Shown here: positions 22,050 through 32,102 of the stretch, in pieces
Layout of the letters: each line of letters opens with the position of its first letter
How positions within the stretch are numbered: position 1 is the first letter of the stretch
Assembly (NCBI GenBank): GCA_012728995.1
Contig: JAAYEB010000204.1
Location: forward strand, 1-37,870
Length of the DNA: 37,870 nt
Source of the DNA: Fibrobacter sp.
GTDB taxonomy: Bacteria; Fibrobacterota; Chitinivibrionia; Chitinivibrionales; Chitinispirillaceae
Direction of reading: 5' to 3'
Notes under the pieces: generated by a model
Told to the model about the DNA's origin: nothing
The model's database searches: none
Seen by the model: the letters and a program-made list of their open reading frames with translations, nothing else
Program-made: the position numbers and the translations under genes

Positions 22050-22610
22050 TTACAATCTGGCTGATCGTTTATAAAAATCAATTACAGTATTTCCATAATA
22101 TCTTATATCGTATGGTTTGAATTCAATATCTGAGAAAATATCCTTGCTCTTATAATCCAAGCTGTGCTCGTATATCAGGATGCCATTTGTCGATAGCAGA
22201 AACGAAATATCAAATATTAAATCCTTTAACTTACACAAATCATATGGTGGATCATAATAGATAATATCATAACAGCCATCTTTATTATTAATAAACCTGT
22301 TAACATCCTGATTATAAAACCGACATCTGTCTGTCACACCCAGAATTTTGGCATTCTTTTTCAAGTAATCAAGTCTGTTTCTGTCTTTCTCAACGAAATC
22401 TGCTCTTGATGCACCTCGACTAAGCATTTCGAACCCCAATGCTCCGCTTCCAGAACAGATATCTGCCGTAACGGCATCTTGAAGTTTTGGTTTGATGATC
22501 TCGCAAACTGATTCGCGTGTACGTTCCAGGGTAGGACGAAAAGATTTCCCACGATCCGGAGTGTACAATATCCGGCCTTTGAATTCACCGGATATGATCC
22601 GAAATTTCAT
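22050..22610 (-). CDS. rsmD: 16S rRNA (guanine-966-N2)-methyltransferase
   Basis: 186 residues. The N-terminal signature ISGEFKGR...RPTLERTRESV, the SAM-binding segment DICSGSGALGFEMLSRGA and the catalytic YYDPPYD are all RsmD hallmarks. It methylates G966 in helix 31 of 16S rRNA. Its ATG is one base after the stop of the pilN-pilO fusion gene, so ribosome biogenesis genes are embedded in a pilus operon. Confidence 0.96.
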   Translation of the reverse strand: MKFRIISGEFKGRILYTPDRGKSFRPTLERTRESVCEIIKPKLQDAVTADICSGSGALGFEMLSRGASRADFVEKDRNRLDYLKKNAKILGVTDRCRFYNQDVNRFINNKDGCYDIIYYDPPYDLCKLKDLIFDISFLLSTNGILIYEHSLDYKSKDIFSDIEFKPYDIRYYGNTVIDFYKRSARL

Positions 22611-22611
22611 A

Positions 22612-23526
22612 CTAGTCTTTCACTGTTAGCAACAACTCAGCATTTATTATTATACTTGATCTGGTTTTAGCTTTAATTTTTATTTTTTTGAATGCACAGA
22701 CAACCTGTTCATTATACAGATCAAGAACCAGACTTACAAAATCTTTATAAATACCAGATCCATCCACCTGATAAATAAACCGGCGGTATTGACCGACCCG
22801 TTCAGCAGATATCTGCCTGGGCTCCGAAAATTTTATTCTGTTTTCATCGGCAATTTTAACAATATGTTTTAAAATTGAAGACAATTCATCACGTGAACCA
22901 AGATTATCCACAGCCTGAAAAGGATCAGAAAAGTTTAAACCGAAATCGGTTTTGCATGTAACGACAAACTTGAATCCGTTTTTTGCATCTGAAGTAATAT
23001 AGGAATAAGGTGGCTGCAGTAAGTTAATTTTTTCTTTTTTAAGATCATTAAATGTTGAAGCAATCAACTCTTTTGTTTTTCCGACTCCATGCGCATAAAC
23101 AGTCTGGAAATTAGTTAACTCCAGGGTCTTTAATCCTATTCCTGATGGTACTACGCGACTTAGCATTGTAACTACATTTTTGCCAAAAGCAACTTCATAA
23201 TTGACTTTTTCTACAAAAGACATATCCTGGTAAGGAATGTTTAGAATACCCTCTTTAATGGATTTCTCTCTTGAATCATTGATCTCGTGGACAATATCTT
23301 CAATCATTCCGGGCTTCAGATGTGAAGAAGGGCTATAATCAGTTACAACTTTCTCCCGATTCATTTTTGGAGTAGACGGCTTTCCAAGGTGCATAAAACC
23401 AATAATCCCACCTGTAACAATAAGACATAAACCTGCGAATATGGTTATTGCAGTTATTTTTTTATTGTCCAAAACGGGTTTTTGTTTTTTTCTGTGTACT
23501 TCTTTAAGAAGATTAATTCGTATCAT
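22612..23526 (-). CDS. pilN: Type IV pilus platform protein, PilN-PilO fusion
   Basis: 304 residues from the ATG at 23526 (the in-frame TTG three codons earlier is ignored because PilN proteins start MIRINLL). The order is: PilN cytoplasmic tail IRINLLKE, one membrane helix (about 26-46), a first periplasmic ferredoxin-like half containing MLSRVVPSGIGLKTLEL (PilN type), then a second half with YQVDGSGIYKDFVSLVLDLY, the hallmark of the PilO C-terminal domain. Normal PilN and PilO are separate proteins of about 200 residues, each with its own helix; here one helix serves both. They link PilM to the outer-membrane secretin complex through PilP. It starts five bases after the pilM stop codon. No separate pilO, pilP or pilQ follows. 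Confidence 0.82.
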   Translation of the reverse strand: MIRINLLKEVHRKKQKPVLDNKKITAITIFAGLCLIVTGGIIGFMHLGKPSTPKMNREKVVTDYSPSSHLKPGMIEDIVHEINDSREKSIKEGILNIPYQDMSFVEKVNYEVAFGKNVVTMLSRVVPSGIGLKTLELTNFQTVYAHGVGKTKELIASTFNDLKKEKINLLQPPYSYITSDAKNGFKFVVTCKTDFGLNFSDPFQAVDNLGSRDELSSILKHIVKIADENRIKFSEPRQISAERVGQYRRFIYQVDGSGIYKDFVSLVLDLYNEQVVCAFKKIKIKAKTRSSIIINAELLLTVKD

Positions 23527-23531
23527 GATTA

Positions 23532-24446
23532 TCAATCATTCCCGCGGAGTGCAAGCCCTACTGAAACAGACAGTTGTGGTATATATGTTTTTAACCGTTC
23601 ATCATCTATACCCACTCTACAAGCAATTTTTCTGAAAGGATTCAGTAACTCTCCATTGTTTGTTTGATTAATTATGGAATCGGAATATTCTATCTGACTA
23701 AAGACAGATCCACATAAAAATAATTTTGCTGATTTAAGTTCATACCCATTAATATAAAGTATTCTGGAGATTTCTTTGAGGACCTTTTGTGAATACATAC
23801 CTGGTTCCAAAGCACCATATTTGTACTCGAAACACTGAAAATCAATAAATTCACCATTTAAACTAAGAATCAACTTCGTTTTTTCCATTTCCCCGTAAAC
23901 AATAATTACTGGTACCGACAAATACTCCTCATAATTAGCTTCAAATACATTTATCAAAGCAAAAATATCCAGATCCATAATAACAGGTTTCAACTTCATG
24001 TTTTTGAGAATTCCAAATACCGGTTCTATACTCTCCCTGCGATAAGCAACGGCAAGATACTCTTTCTGTGATTTCTCTGAAACAATAGCTAATTCTTGAT
24101 AATCCAGCATATATTCATTAATTGAATCATTCAGATTCTGTTCTAATTCCCACTTAACAAGTTCACTAACAGGAGATTTTTCATCGATATCCACCTGAAT
24201 ACGTTTAACAACAGCATATTCAGAAGGTACGCTGATCACTAATTCCGGACTGTGAAATTTAAATTTTCCCTTTAAACTTTTAAGTTCATCTATACTGTTC
24301 TCCCAAAAGCCAGAACCTTTACTTTCCTGTGAAACAGGTTGAATTGCAATTAAAAGAACAGCACTTTCTTCTGGAGAATACTGTGCGATACTAATATAAT
24401 CTTTCTGGATATCTAATCCACTGATATACCTGGATTTTGTTTTCAT
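23532..24446 (-). CDS. pilM: PilM-like actin-fold type IV pilus assembly protein
   Basis: 304 residues from the ATG at 24446, where the family pattern begins (ISGLDIQKDYISIAQ); the frame is open for 29 more codons upstream but these are Cys- and aromatic-rich and unlike PilM. The actin-like fold is suggested by the phosphate-1 strand GLDI, VISVPSEYAVVKRI (as in PilM), the central MDLDIFALINVF strand, and the closing SVSVGLALRG. PilM binds the PilN cytoplasmic tail and couples it to PilB. It is somewhat shorter than typical (about 350). It lies downstream of the HhH gene and just before the pilN-pilO fusion. Confidence 0.85.
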   Translation of the reverse strand: MKTKSRYISGLDIQKDYISIAQYSPEESAVLLIAIQPVSQESKGSGFWENSIDELKSLKGKFKFHSPELVISVPSEYAVVKRIQVDIDEKSPVSELVKWELEQNLNDSINEYMLDYQELAIVSEKSQKEYLAVAYRRESIEPVFGILKNMKLKPVIMDLDIFALINVFEANYEEYLSVPVIIVYGEMEKTKLILSLNGEFIDFQCFEYKYGALEPGMYSQKVLKEISRILYINGYELKSAKLFLCGSVFSQIEYSDSIINQTNNGELLNPFRKIACRVGIDDERLKTYIPQLSVSVGLALRGND

Positions 24447-24564
24447 AATTGTATATATTTCAGAAATGTCCTGATTTGCGATGCAAAACAATAAAATATA
24501 GTAAATACCATGTTGAGAATAAAAGCTAAGCAATTATTAGATACTGTTTTTTGCATTATTCCCA

Positions 24565-24936
24565 TTAAAAACATGTAAATTCCTGTATTTTAAAAAGTTT
24601 CACTCTACCAATTCCTTTCACATTAATAAGATCGTCGCCTTTTTCAAATTTTCCGAAATTTTGACGGTAATCAATAATGTTTTTTGCCAGAACCGGACCG
24701 ATACCTGGAAGCTTTTGCAGATCAGTTTGATCTGCTTCGTTAACATTAACGCAATTATCAAGAGAATGTTGTGTTAAACTTAAATTTACAGTATCGGCTA
24801 TTAAAATATTTTCTGATAGGTCTGTCAAAGCAAAATAGTGGTTATCTTTTTCATTATAAAATTGAGCCGATAGAAAGATCCATAACCCAGCACAAATAAG
24901 CCATAAAAGAATTAACATACCCCGTTTGTTCTTCAT
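24565..24936 (-). CDS. ComEA-like membrane-anchored helix-hairpin-helix protein
   Basis: 123 residues: an N-terminal hydrophobic anchor (about 6-25, MLILLWLICAGLWIFLSAQF) and a C-terminal HhH domain (about 62-123) with VNEADQTDLQKLPGIGPVLA and the second hairpin INVKGIGRVKLFKI. This is the layout of ComEA, the periplasmic DNA receptor in natural transformation, though similar HhH proteins have other roles. Its ATG overlaps the stop of the HD-GYP gene by one base (TAATG), indicating translational coupling. Location between a c-di-GMP regulator and pilM supports a pilus-linked DNA-uptake role, which is inference. Confidence 0.82.
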   Translation of the reverse strand: MKNKRGMLILLWLICAGLWIFLSAQFYNEKDNHYFALTDLSENILIADTVNLSLTQHSLDNCVNVNEADQTDLQKLPGIGPVLAKNIIDYRQNFGKFEKGDDLINVKGIGRVKLFKIQEFTCF

Positions 24937-27988: not shown

Positions 27989-30223
27989 TTATACAGATTC
28001 AAAGTTTGCAAATTTAGCCATCAATTTTTTTCGAGAACCATTATTAAAAAGTACAGTTAATTTCATATCATCACCAAAGCCGCTAATACTCAGAATTCTC
28101 CCACGGCCATAAGTTTTATGTTTAACATGCTGTCCCATTCGAAACTCTATTGTATCCTGAGAGAAATCATCAAATCCAGGATCATTAAAAACCTTCCGTT
28201 TTTTTTGTGGTTTTTCTCTTGTTTCAGTTTCAAACCGCGGCTTAAATCCATTAGATCCATTTTCGATAAAAATACTGCTATCTATATAATTGTAGAGTTC
28301 GGAAGGGATGGTGTTTAAAAATCTTGACTGTGTACTTGGGAGCAAATCACCAAAACGCCATCTGTAATCTACATATGAACATTCAAGATTTTCCATTGCA
28401 CGGGTAAGGCCCACATAAAAAAGCCTTCTTTCTTCTTCAATTGCAGAATCATCATCAAAATTTTGTCGTGATGGTATGATTCCATCCTCAAGACCAACTA
28501 AAAATATGTGTTTGAACTCAAGTCCTTTTGCGCAGTGAAGAGTCATGAGATTAACTGAATTTTCTTTTTTTTCCCAACAATCAACATCACTGACTAAAGA
28601 GATCTCTTCAAGAAAACTTGAAAGCTTTCGATTCTGGCCCTCACTGGACCATATTGTCAAGGCATTAATCAATTCGTTGATATTTTCAATTCTTGCTGAT
28701 GCTTCTTCCGTATTCAGACTTGTTAACATATCCATGTATCCGGAAAAGTGCAGCAATTGTTTGAGAATTTCATCCGGAGATTCACCAGACTTTTCCATTT
28801 CAATTAAAATTTCAAAAAGGGATTTCAAATCAGAAAAGCCCTTCTGATAACGGCTGCCAAGTGCAGAAATATCAGATCTCATTAAAGCTTCAAGCATTGA
28901 GCAATTCAATTTTCTGGAGCTTTGTATCAAAGTGTCCCTTGCTTTATCCCCCAGTCCTCTGGCTGGAACATTCATTATTCTGCCAAAGCTCTCATCATCA
29001 CATGGATTTATTATCAATCTAAGATATGCTATACAGTCTTTTACTTCTGCCCTTTCATAAAATCCTGTTCCACCAACCAGTACGTAGGGAATTCTATGTT
29101 TTCGGAATGCTTCCTCAAAAGATCGGGACTGTGCATTTGTCCTGAATAAAATGGCAATTTCACCCAGCATTGTTTTTGTGTCATTAATAGAACAGATTTT
29201 TTTTGCAATTGATTCAGCTTCCTGCCTGTTATCGCGATATCTGGTTAGAATGACTTTTTCGCCCGATGTCCGATCAGTCCACAGTTTTTTTGAAGCCCGT
29301 ATTTTATTATCCATTATTGCAGCATTTGCAAAATCCAGTATGTGTTTTGTTGATCTGTAATTTTGCTCCAGCTTGAAGACCTTTGTATCTGGATATTGCC
29401 GCTCAAAGGAGAGGATATTCTCTATTTGTGCACCGCGCCATCCGTATATGCTCTGGTCATCATCACCAACAACAAAAATTTTATTATTATTACCTACAAG
29501 CATTTTCAAAAAAAGAAACTGGGTGTAGTTCGTATCCTGATACTCATCAACAAGGACATATTTGAACATGTTTCTATATTTAAGGAGAACGTTTTCATTT
29601 TTACGAAATATCAATACAGTCTGCATTAAAAGGTCATCAAAATCCATTGCCTGTTGTTTGTGTAGCATTTCCTGATAAGATTTATATACCCTTAAGACTT
29701 CCTGTTCATAATATCCTTTAACACTGTTTTGAAGATCTTCTGGCAGAAGGCATAGATTTTTATATTTTGAAATTGCATTATGAATCTGTTTTGGCGGCAT
29801 ACTGCGATCGTCAATTTCCAGATTTTTAAGAACTTTTTTCAACAAGGAGATCTGATCACTTCTATCATAAATAGTAAATGAAGGTGTGTAATCAATATTT
29901 AGGCATTCTCTTCTTAAAATTCTTGCACATAATGAGTGAAAAGTGCCAATCCATAGACCATCAACCGAAACATTTACCAGATTTTCTACTCTCTGTCTCA
30001 TTTCTCCGGCAGACTTGTTTGTAAATGTTGCTGCAAGAATCTGCCATGGATTAATCCCTTTTTCGATTAAAAAAGCAATTTTTGCCGTTAAGACACGTGT
30101 TTTTCCTGTGCCGGCACCCGCAAAAACCAATTGAGGTCCATTGCAGTATTCTACAGCTTCACGTTGAACCTTGTTTAGTATCATTCTGTTTATAACCGGC
30201 AAATTTTGAAAATTTTCAATCAT
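27989..30223 (-). CDS. pcrA: UvrD/PcrA-family superfamily 1A DNA helicase
   Basis: 744 residues with the full set of UvrD motifs: AGAGTGKTRVL (Walker A), FTNKSAGEMRQRV, DEYQDTN, GDDDQSIYGWRGA, EQNYRST, TLHCAKGLEF and VGLTRA. The C-terminal tail (about 690-744) has VKHKTYGRGRILSI, the Tudor-like domain of PcrA that contacts RNA polymerase. Roles in the family are nucleotide-excision repair, displacement of RecA and RNA polymerase. Its start overlaps the end of pilB by eight bases, and gatC follows; PcrA next to GatC is an odd functional mix but typical of this compact operon. Confidence 0.95.
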   Translation of the reverse strand: MIENFQNLPVINRMILNKVQREAVEYCNGPQLVFAGAGTGKTRVLTAKIAFLIEKGINPWQILAATFTNKSAGEMRQRVENLVNVSVDGLWIGTFHSLCARILRRECLNIDYTPSFTIYDRSDQISLLKKVLKNLEIDDRSMPPKQIHNAISKYKNLCLLPEDLQNSVKGYYEQEVLRVYKSYQEMLHKQQAMDFDDLLMQTVLIFRKNENVLLKYRNMFKYVLVDEYQDTNYTQFLFLKMLVGNNNKIFVVGDDDQSIYGWRGAQIENILSFERQYPDTKVFKLEQNYRSTKHILDFANAAIMDNKIRASKKLWTDRTSGEKVILTRYRDNRQEAESIAKKICSINDTKTMLGEIAILFRTNAQSRSFEEAFRKHRIPYVLVGGTGFYERAEVKDCIAYLRLIINPCDDESFGRIMNVPARGLGDKARDTLIQSSRKLNCSMLEALMRSDISALGSRYQKGFSDLKSLFEILIEMEKSGESPDEILKQLLHFSGYMDMLTSLNTEEASARIENINELINALTIWSSEGQNRKLSSFLEEISLVSDVDCWEKKENSVNLMTLHCAKGLEFKHIFLVGLEDGIIPSRQNFDDDSAIEEERRLFYVGLTRAMENLECSYVDYRWRFGDLLPSTQSRFLNTIPSELYNYIDSSIFIENGSNGFKPRFETETREKPQKKRKVFNDPGFDDFSQDTIEFRMGQHVKHKTYGRGRILSISGFGDDMKLTVLFNNGSRKKLMAKFANFESV

Positions 30224-32102
30224 CCTGTGTTGCTCCCAATACCTGCTCTATAGATGTAAGGCCATTAATAACTTTCAACAGCCCATCACGCCGAAGAGTG
30301 TTAAAATTTCCTCTCTTTAGAAGATAATCTTTGATCTGCTCAGATGGAACCCTTTGAAGAACAAGTTTTGTAACATTTGGATCCGGAGTTAGTAACTCAT
30401 ACAATCCTATTCTTCCTTTAAACCCGGTTCCATTACAGTATTTGCATCCTTTTGCCCTGTAAAATGTAATTTCCTGTCCAATACCCAGTTTTTCCAGCAA
30501 TTCCGGTTCAGCTATATAAGGTTCCTTACATTTTGCACAGAGTTTCCGGACCAGCCGTTGTGCCATAATTCCAATAACTGTTGAAGTTATCAAATATGGT
30601 TCAAGTCCCATATCCAGCAAACGTGTGAAAGCACTGGCTGAATCGTTGGTATGAAGAGTAGAAAATACAAGATGTCCTGTTAATGATGCCTGAATTGCCA
30701 TTTCACATGTTTCAAGATCACGCATTTCCCCTATCATTATAATATCGGGATCCTGCCTTAGAATCGATCGCATACCCTCGGCAAATGTAAAGCCGGATCT
30801 TGGGGTAATCTGTCCCTGACTTATTCCATCAAGATTGAACTCAACCGGATCTTCCATTGTCACAATATTTTTTGAAATATCATAAATTTTCTGAAGTGCG
30901 GAATAGAGTGTTGAACTTTTTCCACTTCCGGTGGGTCCTGTTACAAGAATAATCCCATCAGGCTTATGAATGATTTCATCAAAATCTTTAAGTGTACCAG
31001 GCAATAAACCAAGCTGATTTAATGTGAGATTGTTTGCATAAGGATCAAGAATACGCATTACGATTTTTTCATTAACACCGCGGTTTCTTGTCATAACAGG
31101 ATAAGAAGAAACACGAAGATCAACTTCACGTCCCTGAAATCTTATCTGAAACCTTCCATCCTGCGGTTTCCTTTTTTCTGCGATATCCATACCCGACATG
31201 ATTTTTAAACGTGAAATTATCTGGGCCCTCAATTGCAACGGAATAGGGTTTTTCTCCTTTAGTTCTCCATCAATACGATAACGAAGCCTCAGATATTTTT
31301 CCAGTGGTTCAATATGTATGTCTGATGCCCCTTCAACGATTGCCTGATTTATAAGAAGGTTTACAATTTTTACGACCTGTGCACCCTCTTCATCGGTTAA
31401 ATTTTCAACATCTTCCTCTCTTTTAATCACATCAAGCTCTTCATGACCCGAAATTTCTCCAAGCAGTTGGGTCATGTCTTCCAAACCACTGGCATAGTTT
31501 TTATCGATTGCATTAAGAATATTTTTCTCTGTAGCAATAACGGGTTCTATTTCTTTTCCGGTTTTAAATTTCAAATGATCAATTGTGCGTAAATTTGTAG
31601 GATCAGCCATGGCAAAGGTAATCACACCATTTTTTTCATACAATGGAATTACTTTATTTTTTCTTGCCATTTCTTCAGGTATGATCTGCAGAAGTGATTG
31701 TGAAAAAACAAAATTGTCGAGAATAACATGTTGAATGTCAAGTTGTGCACTGAGAATATCTGCCAGCTTTGATTCCGAAATAAAACCAAGTTTTGTAAGA
31801 CATTTCCCCAACCTCAGACCGGTTTTACGCTGCTCTTCAAGTCCAGCTTTCAATTGGCATTCAGTAATCAAACCCTGATCTATTAATACCTCACCAATTC
31901 TTTTTTTATGATCCAGATGAATCTGTTGTCCAAGAACGCTGGAAAGTTCCTCATCACTTATATACCCAAGTTTTACAAGGATAGTACCAAAGCTTATTCC
32001 TGTTCTCTTATGTTCCTGAAGAGCAAACAGTAATTGTTCCTGAGAAATCAGGCCTTGCGCAATTAAGATTTCACCCAGTTTCTTTCGGCGTTTTTCTATC
32101 AT
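30216..32102 (-). CDS. pilB: Type IV pilus extension ATPase PilB with tandem MshEN domains
   Basis: 628 residues. Two consecutive MshEN repeats lie at about 9-62 and 69-122; the second follows the c-di-GMP-binding consensus closely (RIGEVLIDQGLI, LEEQRKTGLRLGKCL), while the first has small deviations (K for R, FG for LG). A GSPII_E N2 domain follows, then the ATPase: GPTGSGKSSTLYS (Walker A), EDPVEF (Asp box), MIGEMRDLET (Walker B) and STLHTNDS (His box). A zinc-binding CAKC...CKYC pair is present. PilB hexamers power pilus assembly. It lies between thiL and pcrA, away from pilM/N; pilT and pilC are absent. Confidence 0.95.
   Translation of the reverse strand: MIEKRRKKLGEILIAQGLISQEQLLFALQEHKRTGISFGTILVKLGYISDEELSSVLGQQIHLDHKKRIGEVLIDQGLITECQLKAGLEEQRKTGLRLGKCLTKLGFISESKLADILSAQLDIQHVILDNFVFSQSLLQIIPEEMARKNKVIPLYEKNGVITFAMADPTNLRTIDHLKFKTGKEIEPVIATEKNILNAIDKNYASGLEDMTQLLGEISGHEELDVIKREEDVENLTDEEGAQVVKIVNLLINQAIVEGASDIHIEPLEKYLRLRYRIDGELKEKNPIPLQLRAQIISRLKIMSGMDIAEKRKPQDGRFQIRFQGREVDLRVSSYPVMTRNRGVNEKIVMRILDPYANNLTLNQLGLLPGTLKDFDEIIHKPDGIILVTGPTGSGKSSTLYSALQKIYDISKNIVTMEDPVEFNLDGISQGQITPRSGFTFAEGMRSILRQDPDIIMIGEMRDLETCEMAIQASLTGHLVFSTLHTNDSASAFTRLLDMGLEPYLITSTVIGIMAQRLVRKLCAKCKEPYIAEPELLEKLGIGQEITFYRAKGCKYCNGTGFKGRIGLYELLTPDPNVTKLVLQRVPSEQIKDYLLKRGNFNTLRRDGLLKVINGLTSIEQVLGATQDD

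Follow-up and report, generated by a model that had tools for sequence, protein, structure and literature searches.

A PilN–PilO fusion with a single predicted membrane anchor, encoded beside PilM and ComEA-like genes in Fibrobacterota and retained in genomes in which filament genes were not found

In bacterial type IV pili, PilN and PilO normally form a pair within the pilus base, and genes for PilM, PilN and PilO are commonly taken to prove that such a pilus exists. Neither the fusion of PilMNO-type proteins nor their re-use apart from pili is unheard of. According to the accessible part of one report, FcpMNO, a PilMNO copy unconnected with type IV pili, belongs to the flagellar motor of Campylobacterota, where it is fused in Arcobacter (fcpMNO) and Nitratiruptor (fcpMN), and most pilM–pilN genes of that phylum are fused (PMC11870540). 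PulL is likewise described, in the portion available, as a PilM–PilN fusion (PMC10191384), and the available text on Chloroflexota proposes PilN/PilO without PilM, PilP or PilQ beside an archaellum (PMC13319060). In Akkermansia, the PilM-like Amuc_1101 is encoded next to Amuc_1100, which has a PilO-related fold. In the literature searched, as far as its accessible text extends, we found no description of a stand-alone PilN–PilO fusion.

The window analysed here (the whole stretch of 37 870 nucleotides) encodes such a fusion, which we call PilNO. The genes discussed below are the following.

22612..23526, minus strand: pilNO, the PilN–PilO fusion (ATG start, 304 aa)
23532..24443, minus strand: a pilM paralogue (about 303 aa; Pfam PilM_2, 68.7 bits; a longer form from a TTG start at 24533 is possible)
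24565..24936, minus strand: a ComEA-like gene (N-terminal hydrophobic segment and helix–hairpin–helix DNA-binding domain; PF12836, 65 bits)
22050..22610, minus strand: an RsmD-like rRNA methyltransferase gene, the conserved downstream neighbour of pilNO
30216..32102, minus strand: a PilB/GspE-type ATPase gene (T2SSE, 429 bits; MshEN)

PilNO shares with the PilN and PilO of type IVa systems (Pseudomonas aeruginosa, Myxococcus xanthus and Thermus thermophilus) the INLL-type tail and membrane helix of PilN, the succession of a PilN-type and a PilO-type ferredoxin-like domain and the position of its gene directly after pilM. It differs from them in being one chain with one anchor and no second helix, in having no pilP or pilQ after it, in coexisting with a separate canonical set and in persisting where filament machinery was not found. 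Its closest precedent is FcpMNO of Campylobacterota, fused in Arcobacter: both are PilMNO copies apart from type IV pili with gene fusions, but FcpMNO is, in the text at hand, flagellar (PMC11870540), whereas here the order is ComEA–PilM–PilNO and the common fusion is PilN–PilO rather than PilM–PilN.

The N-terminus of the protein, MIRINLL, is a PilN-type cytoplasmic tail. A single hydrophobic segment was detected at residues 23–48, the transmembrane helix spans about residues 21–48, and a stretch at about 49–82 is disordered and of low confidence in the AlphaFold2 model. The PilN-type ferredoxin-like domain then covers about residues 104–195 and the PilO-type domain about residues 205–304. 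The motifs MLSRVVPSGIGL and GSGIYKDFVSLVLDLY, on which the initial annotation had relied, both occur in the protein. Among 44 family sequences, 43 have NL inside their first eight residues; the sole exception is an ORF piece of genome G054, in which PilM is fused on, and in this one case the loss of the tail is what would be expected if the tail holds PilM. One hydrophobic segment was detected in 43 of the 44 and none at the cut-off in the remaining one, and a second membrane helix between the PilN and PilO domains was found in none of them (0/44). The PilO half of PilNO thus lacks an N-terminal transmembrane helix of its own. Between the membrane helix and the first domain the model has only short helices and no confidently predicted coiled coil, which suggests that the PilN–PilO coiled-coil arrangement may have been lost in the fusion. 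As the initial annotation pointed out, having PilN and PilO in one chain fixes their ratio at 1:1.

Searches with the lone 304-residue sequence proved too weak to identify the two halves: it reached 12.5 bits against Pfam PilO (PF04350), below the cut-off of 22, and did not match Pfam PilN (PF05137), and single-sequence searches of Pfam, NCBIfam and, with phmmer, the PDB returned no PilN and PilO only below threshold. Family profiles were therefore needed. Using an alignment of 35 PilNO members (A1), we compared an N-domain segment (residues 92–197) and a C-domain segment (200–304) by hhalign with 46 PilN and 44 PilO templates, canonical proteins of the same phylum gathered by profile. The N-domain matched PilN (probability 76.3, score 36.4) and not PilO (0.2), whereas the C-domain matched PilO (probability 94.2, score 48.5) and not PilN (0.7). 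None of 60 column-shuffled templates reached the real score for either the N-domain with PilN or the C-domain with PilO, while the scores of the two crossed pairs were reached by 23/60 and 3/60. When the A1 profile was searched with hmmsearch against 177 635 PDB sequences, M. xanthus PilN ranked first (E 0.001, profile positions 1–162, including the tail) and M. xanthus PilO second (E 0.0015, positions 205–292). Two relatives point in the same direction with Pfam profiles: a single ORF of G013 scores 32.8 bits for PilN (cut-off 22.8) and 20.8 bits for PilO, just under its cut-off of 22, and the N-terminal half of G016, scored together with its neighbours in frame, reaches 22.9 bits for PilN PF05137 (cut-off 22.8).

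The AlphaFold2 model (mean pLDDT 84.2; most of each domain exceeds 90) consists of the transmembrane helix followed by two α-β-β-α-β-β units. The best structural match of the C-domain is PilO 2rjz_A (Z 8.8, rmsd 3.4, 111 aligned residues), in line with the PilO assignment of the initial annotation; PilO of 3jc8 (Z 8.0, rmsd 2.3, 99 aligned, with the PilNO model) and PilO 5uvr (Z 6.5, rmsd 2.2, 88 aligned, with the C-domain) follow, PulM is also among the best matches of this domain, and the best four Foldseek matches of the model are all PilO chains. Residues 112–194 of the N-domain superpose on PulL 5hl8 (Z 6.3, rmsd 2.3, 78 aligned), so that the C-domains of PulL and PulM match the two domains of PilNO. 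The junction in PilNO is nevertheless PilN–PilO, unlike that of GspL/PulL and GspM/PulM, and only a triple fusion in G054, described below, is GspL-like at its front. Amuc_1100 (6kny) also matches the model (Z 6.8, rmsd 3.7, 110 aligned); we set it aside as a two-domain precedent on the strength of its description, in the part of the paper available, as a four-stranded sheet forming two α-β-β motifs, which we read as one ferredoxin-like domain (PMC10688800).

The ferredoxin-like fold is common, and the regulatory domain of threonine dehydratase, which looks unrelated, reaches Z 6.8 against the PilNO model, so that Z values below 8 are not specific by themselves. The protein might then be a PilN whose second ferredoxin-like domain, duplicated or unrelated, resembles PilO by fold only. 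The two domains, however, do not match each other (hhalign 0.6), the C-domain profile fits PilO and not PilN, and only PilN outranks PilO among the PDB sequences. We therefore find this explanation very improbable and regard PilNO as, almost certainly, a genuine PilN–PilO fusion with a single anchor, as first annotated.

The fusion is an old one and occurs widely across the phylum. A first contig scan with the 304-residue protein alone found nothing, and a scan with alignment A2 and a single peptide pattern gave 18 loci, all in this phylum (Fibrobacterota, Chitinispirillia and Chitinivibrionales). As a query against 60 relatives, the lone protein matched 49 at an E-value of 1 or below. A broader profile built from 26 sequences (A3) matched 161 of the 167 genomes of the phylum, in 39 of 40 genera, and 87 of the 89 genomes with at least 90% completeness and at most 5% contamination. 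These counts, together with a single ORF at every locus read and the absence of a second membrane helix from all 44 sequences, speak against an artificial joining of two genes through misassembly or a frameshift error, a possibility in favour of which we found no point and which we consider negligible. At their cut-offs, the standard PilN and PilO profiles miss PilNO in most members. Published counts for the phylum, in the table available to us, give one PilM, one PilN and one PilO per genome (PMC4704652, Table 4), and these figures apparently leave out the fused copy.

A search of the window's own genome found two separate PilO genes besides the fusion, one in each of the following sets.

Contig C290: canonical set, pilM–pilN–pilO–583-aa gene–secretin (pilQ)
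Contig C452, L005:7629-12074: T2SS-like set with a GspE-type ATPase, a secretin, PilO (43.7 bits) and further T2SS-like genes

The initial annotation had remarked that no separate pilO follows the fusion. This holds locally, as the RsmD-like gene comes next, but not genome-wide, and full-length separate PilO proteins thus coexist with a C-terminal half that does model as PilO. Its implied reading of the fusion as the PilN/PilO of the cell's pilus is not supported, given the canonical pilMNO–pilQ set, the T2SS-like PilO and the persistence of the fusion in relatives in which filament machinery was not found. The fused pilNO is a third PilMNO-type system, apart from the pilus and T2SS-like sets. 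The GspL-like protein of C452 has 406 residues and ends in a PilN domain. The same cluster also encodes a 171-residue protein without a Pfam match. The C290 gene that separates pilO from the secretin (L004:2551-4302) encodes 583 residues with an SH3_3 domain, a product presumably far bigger than a typical PilP. In some relatives there is an additional, separate pilM–pilN–pilO set (L136:2268-4446; L135–L148), which is distant from the canonical as well as the fused set. A closer relationship of the fusion to this additional set was rejected: the fused domains match canonical PilN and PilO, and the full-length PilNO profile matches the PilN of the further set with a probability of only 11.

In the window, pilNO starts a few bases past the stop of pilM, and the gene that we take to be rsmD begins within two bases after pilNO. 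An HD-type response-regulator gene lies upstream of the ComEA-like gene, and the genes further upstream are presumably KdsB-, GatC- and UvrD-like, as named from their sequences. The conserved row is ComEA–PilM–PilNO–RsmD–CoaD–rhomboid. We read the gene order in 42 loci, the window included, several of which have too little upstream sequence for ComEA. By a distance rule, PilM lies directly upstream of pilNO in 37 of the 42; in one locus it is fused to pilNO, and in L054, L057, L058 and L062 a PilM match is present but overlaps, a longer start having been taken. RsmD lies downstream in 40/42. The RsmD-like gene is a housekeeping gene and is not thought to be part of PilNO function. A ComEA-like gene was found upstream of PilM by profile in 28 of the 42 loci and not found in 14, and in ten further loci, selected from other families and G051, ComEA adjoined in nine and PilM in all ten. 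The neighbourhood is otherwise housekeeping, so that the adjacency may be frozen gene order.

The PilM paralogue differs from canonical PilM in its family consensus: GIDIG has become GIDIQ, NIG is lost, SGGGA has become xGSLF, and there is a gap of some 30 columns. We take these motifs to be nucleotide-binding, from what is seen in the actin-like family. From its sequence, the paralogue has likely lost ATP binding, as in GspL.

The PilB/GspE-type ATPase gene is conserved in the same region, and yet pilNO persists without the ATPase. PilC/T2SSF was found in 156 of the 167 genomes. Two genomes (G035 and G061) have neither pilNO nor PilC, and nine have pilNO with no PilC match. We did not count five of these nine as evidence (G062, G065, G067, G071 and G129, 62–87% complete). 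The other four are all the genomes of genus g27 (G051, G052, G054 and G164; 4/4), whereas the sister genus g39 of the same family has PilC in 6/6. G164 was searched for PilC only; in G051, G052 and G054, which are 98–100% complete, we searched for further filament genes and found no secretin, no T2SSE (PilB/PilT-type ATPase) above the cut-off, with only weak matches below it, and no separate PilO or PilN (PF04350, PF05137) at E 1 or better. The same three genomes keep ComEA–PilM–PilNO in order, plus ComEC. PilB, PilC and a secretin are all present in the window's own genome. ComEC occurs in 12/12 genomes searched, and its presence therefore does not discriminate. The loss of filament machinery is in effect that of one lineage, g27. 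That pilNO is retained in genomes in which we found no pilus machinery makes a role other than pilus assembly probable.

One g27 genome carries the fusion a step further.

L074:6815-8416 (G054): PilM, transmembrane helix, PilN and PilO in one ORF (533 aa), next to ComEA

Its model (mean pLDDT 75.8, pTM 0.46), built from a mixed alignment (A4) with partly misaligned rows, shows a PilM-type front lobe, a transmembrane helix and two ferredoxin-like domains, and its PilM part is shorter than usual. Foldseek retrieved P. aeruginosa PilM (E 3.4e-8), PilM–PilN 2ych (E 1.2e-7) and GspL (E 2.0e-7), a list topped by the PilM/GspL part that confirms the front of the protein and not the ferredoxin-like domains.

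We may wonder what such a unit does. PilM, on the cytoplasmic face, would bind the INLL tail of PilNO, whose single helix would cross the inner membrane and whose PilN and PilO ferredoxin-like domains would stand in the periplasm at a fixed 1:1 ratio. The unit would be a static scaffold that does not respond to ATP, and would work without a type IV filament. Judging from gene order, the best-supported partner of PilM–PilNO would be the neighbouring ComEA-like protein: the scaffold would serve, possibly by physical contact, this membrane-anchored DNA receptor, and might handle or take up DNA at the inner membrane together with ComEC. Taken as a whole, this mechanism, a filament-independent PilM–PilNO scaffold of the inner membrane linked to ComEA and DNA uptake, is in our judgement evenly poised between right and wrong. 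With neither a pilus nor a secretin, DNA would have to cross the outer membrane in some other way.

An alternative is that the cell's own type IV pilus or competence pilus uses PilM–PilNO as an accessory alignment complex, which would act with the nearby PilB and the canonical PilC and PilQ; the persistence of PilM–PilNO in g27 would then be a relic or a secondary use. The PilB-type ATPase in the same conserved region and the presence of PilC in most genomes are compatible with this, as is the requirement for PilM, PilN and PilO of Thermus for the DNA transporter and/or pili, as given in the available part of PMC6325625. The cell, however, already has a separate PilM, PilN and PilO set, all four g27 genomes keep pilNO without a PilC match, three of them also without a secretin or T2SSE over the cut-off, and the neighbouring PilM has lost its nucleotide-site motifs; we consider a pilus accessory unlikely. 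A scaffold of the flagellum, comparable to the FcpMNO cage in Campylobacterota, has the precedent cited at the outset and the description, in the accessible text of PMC4704652, of flagella as ancestral in the phylum. The same text describes Fibrobacteraceae as without flagella, and pilNO is present in all searched genomes of family f8, which we infer to be Fibrobacteraceae, except G099 and G156 (both 71% complete). No flagellar gene occurs among the labelled neighbours either, and a flagellar role appears improbable.

The filament-independent scaffold linked to ComEA can be put in a stronger form, in which ComEA–PilM–PilNO, across the phylum, would be a complex of the inner membrane dedicated to handling DNA, freed from any type IV filament and progressively fused (PilN–PilO throughout the phylum, PilM–PilN–PilO in one genome of g27). 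This form is tentative and we lean against it; if it were true, the PilMNO platform would have been re-used for a DNA receptor and not for a pilus. What is new here, as far as the accessible text of the literature searched shows, is a stand-alone PilN–PilO fusion beside ComEA and PilM that is near-universal in a phylum and kept without filament genes. A natural PilN–PilO fusion offers a unit of fixed stoichiometry for testing PilN–PilO pairing, and a near-universal PilM–PilNO that outlasts the pilus genes separates the role of the PilMNO platform from pilus building.
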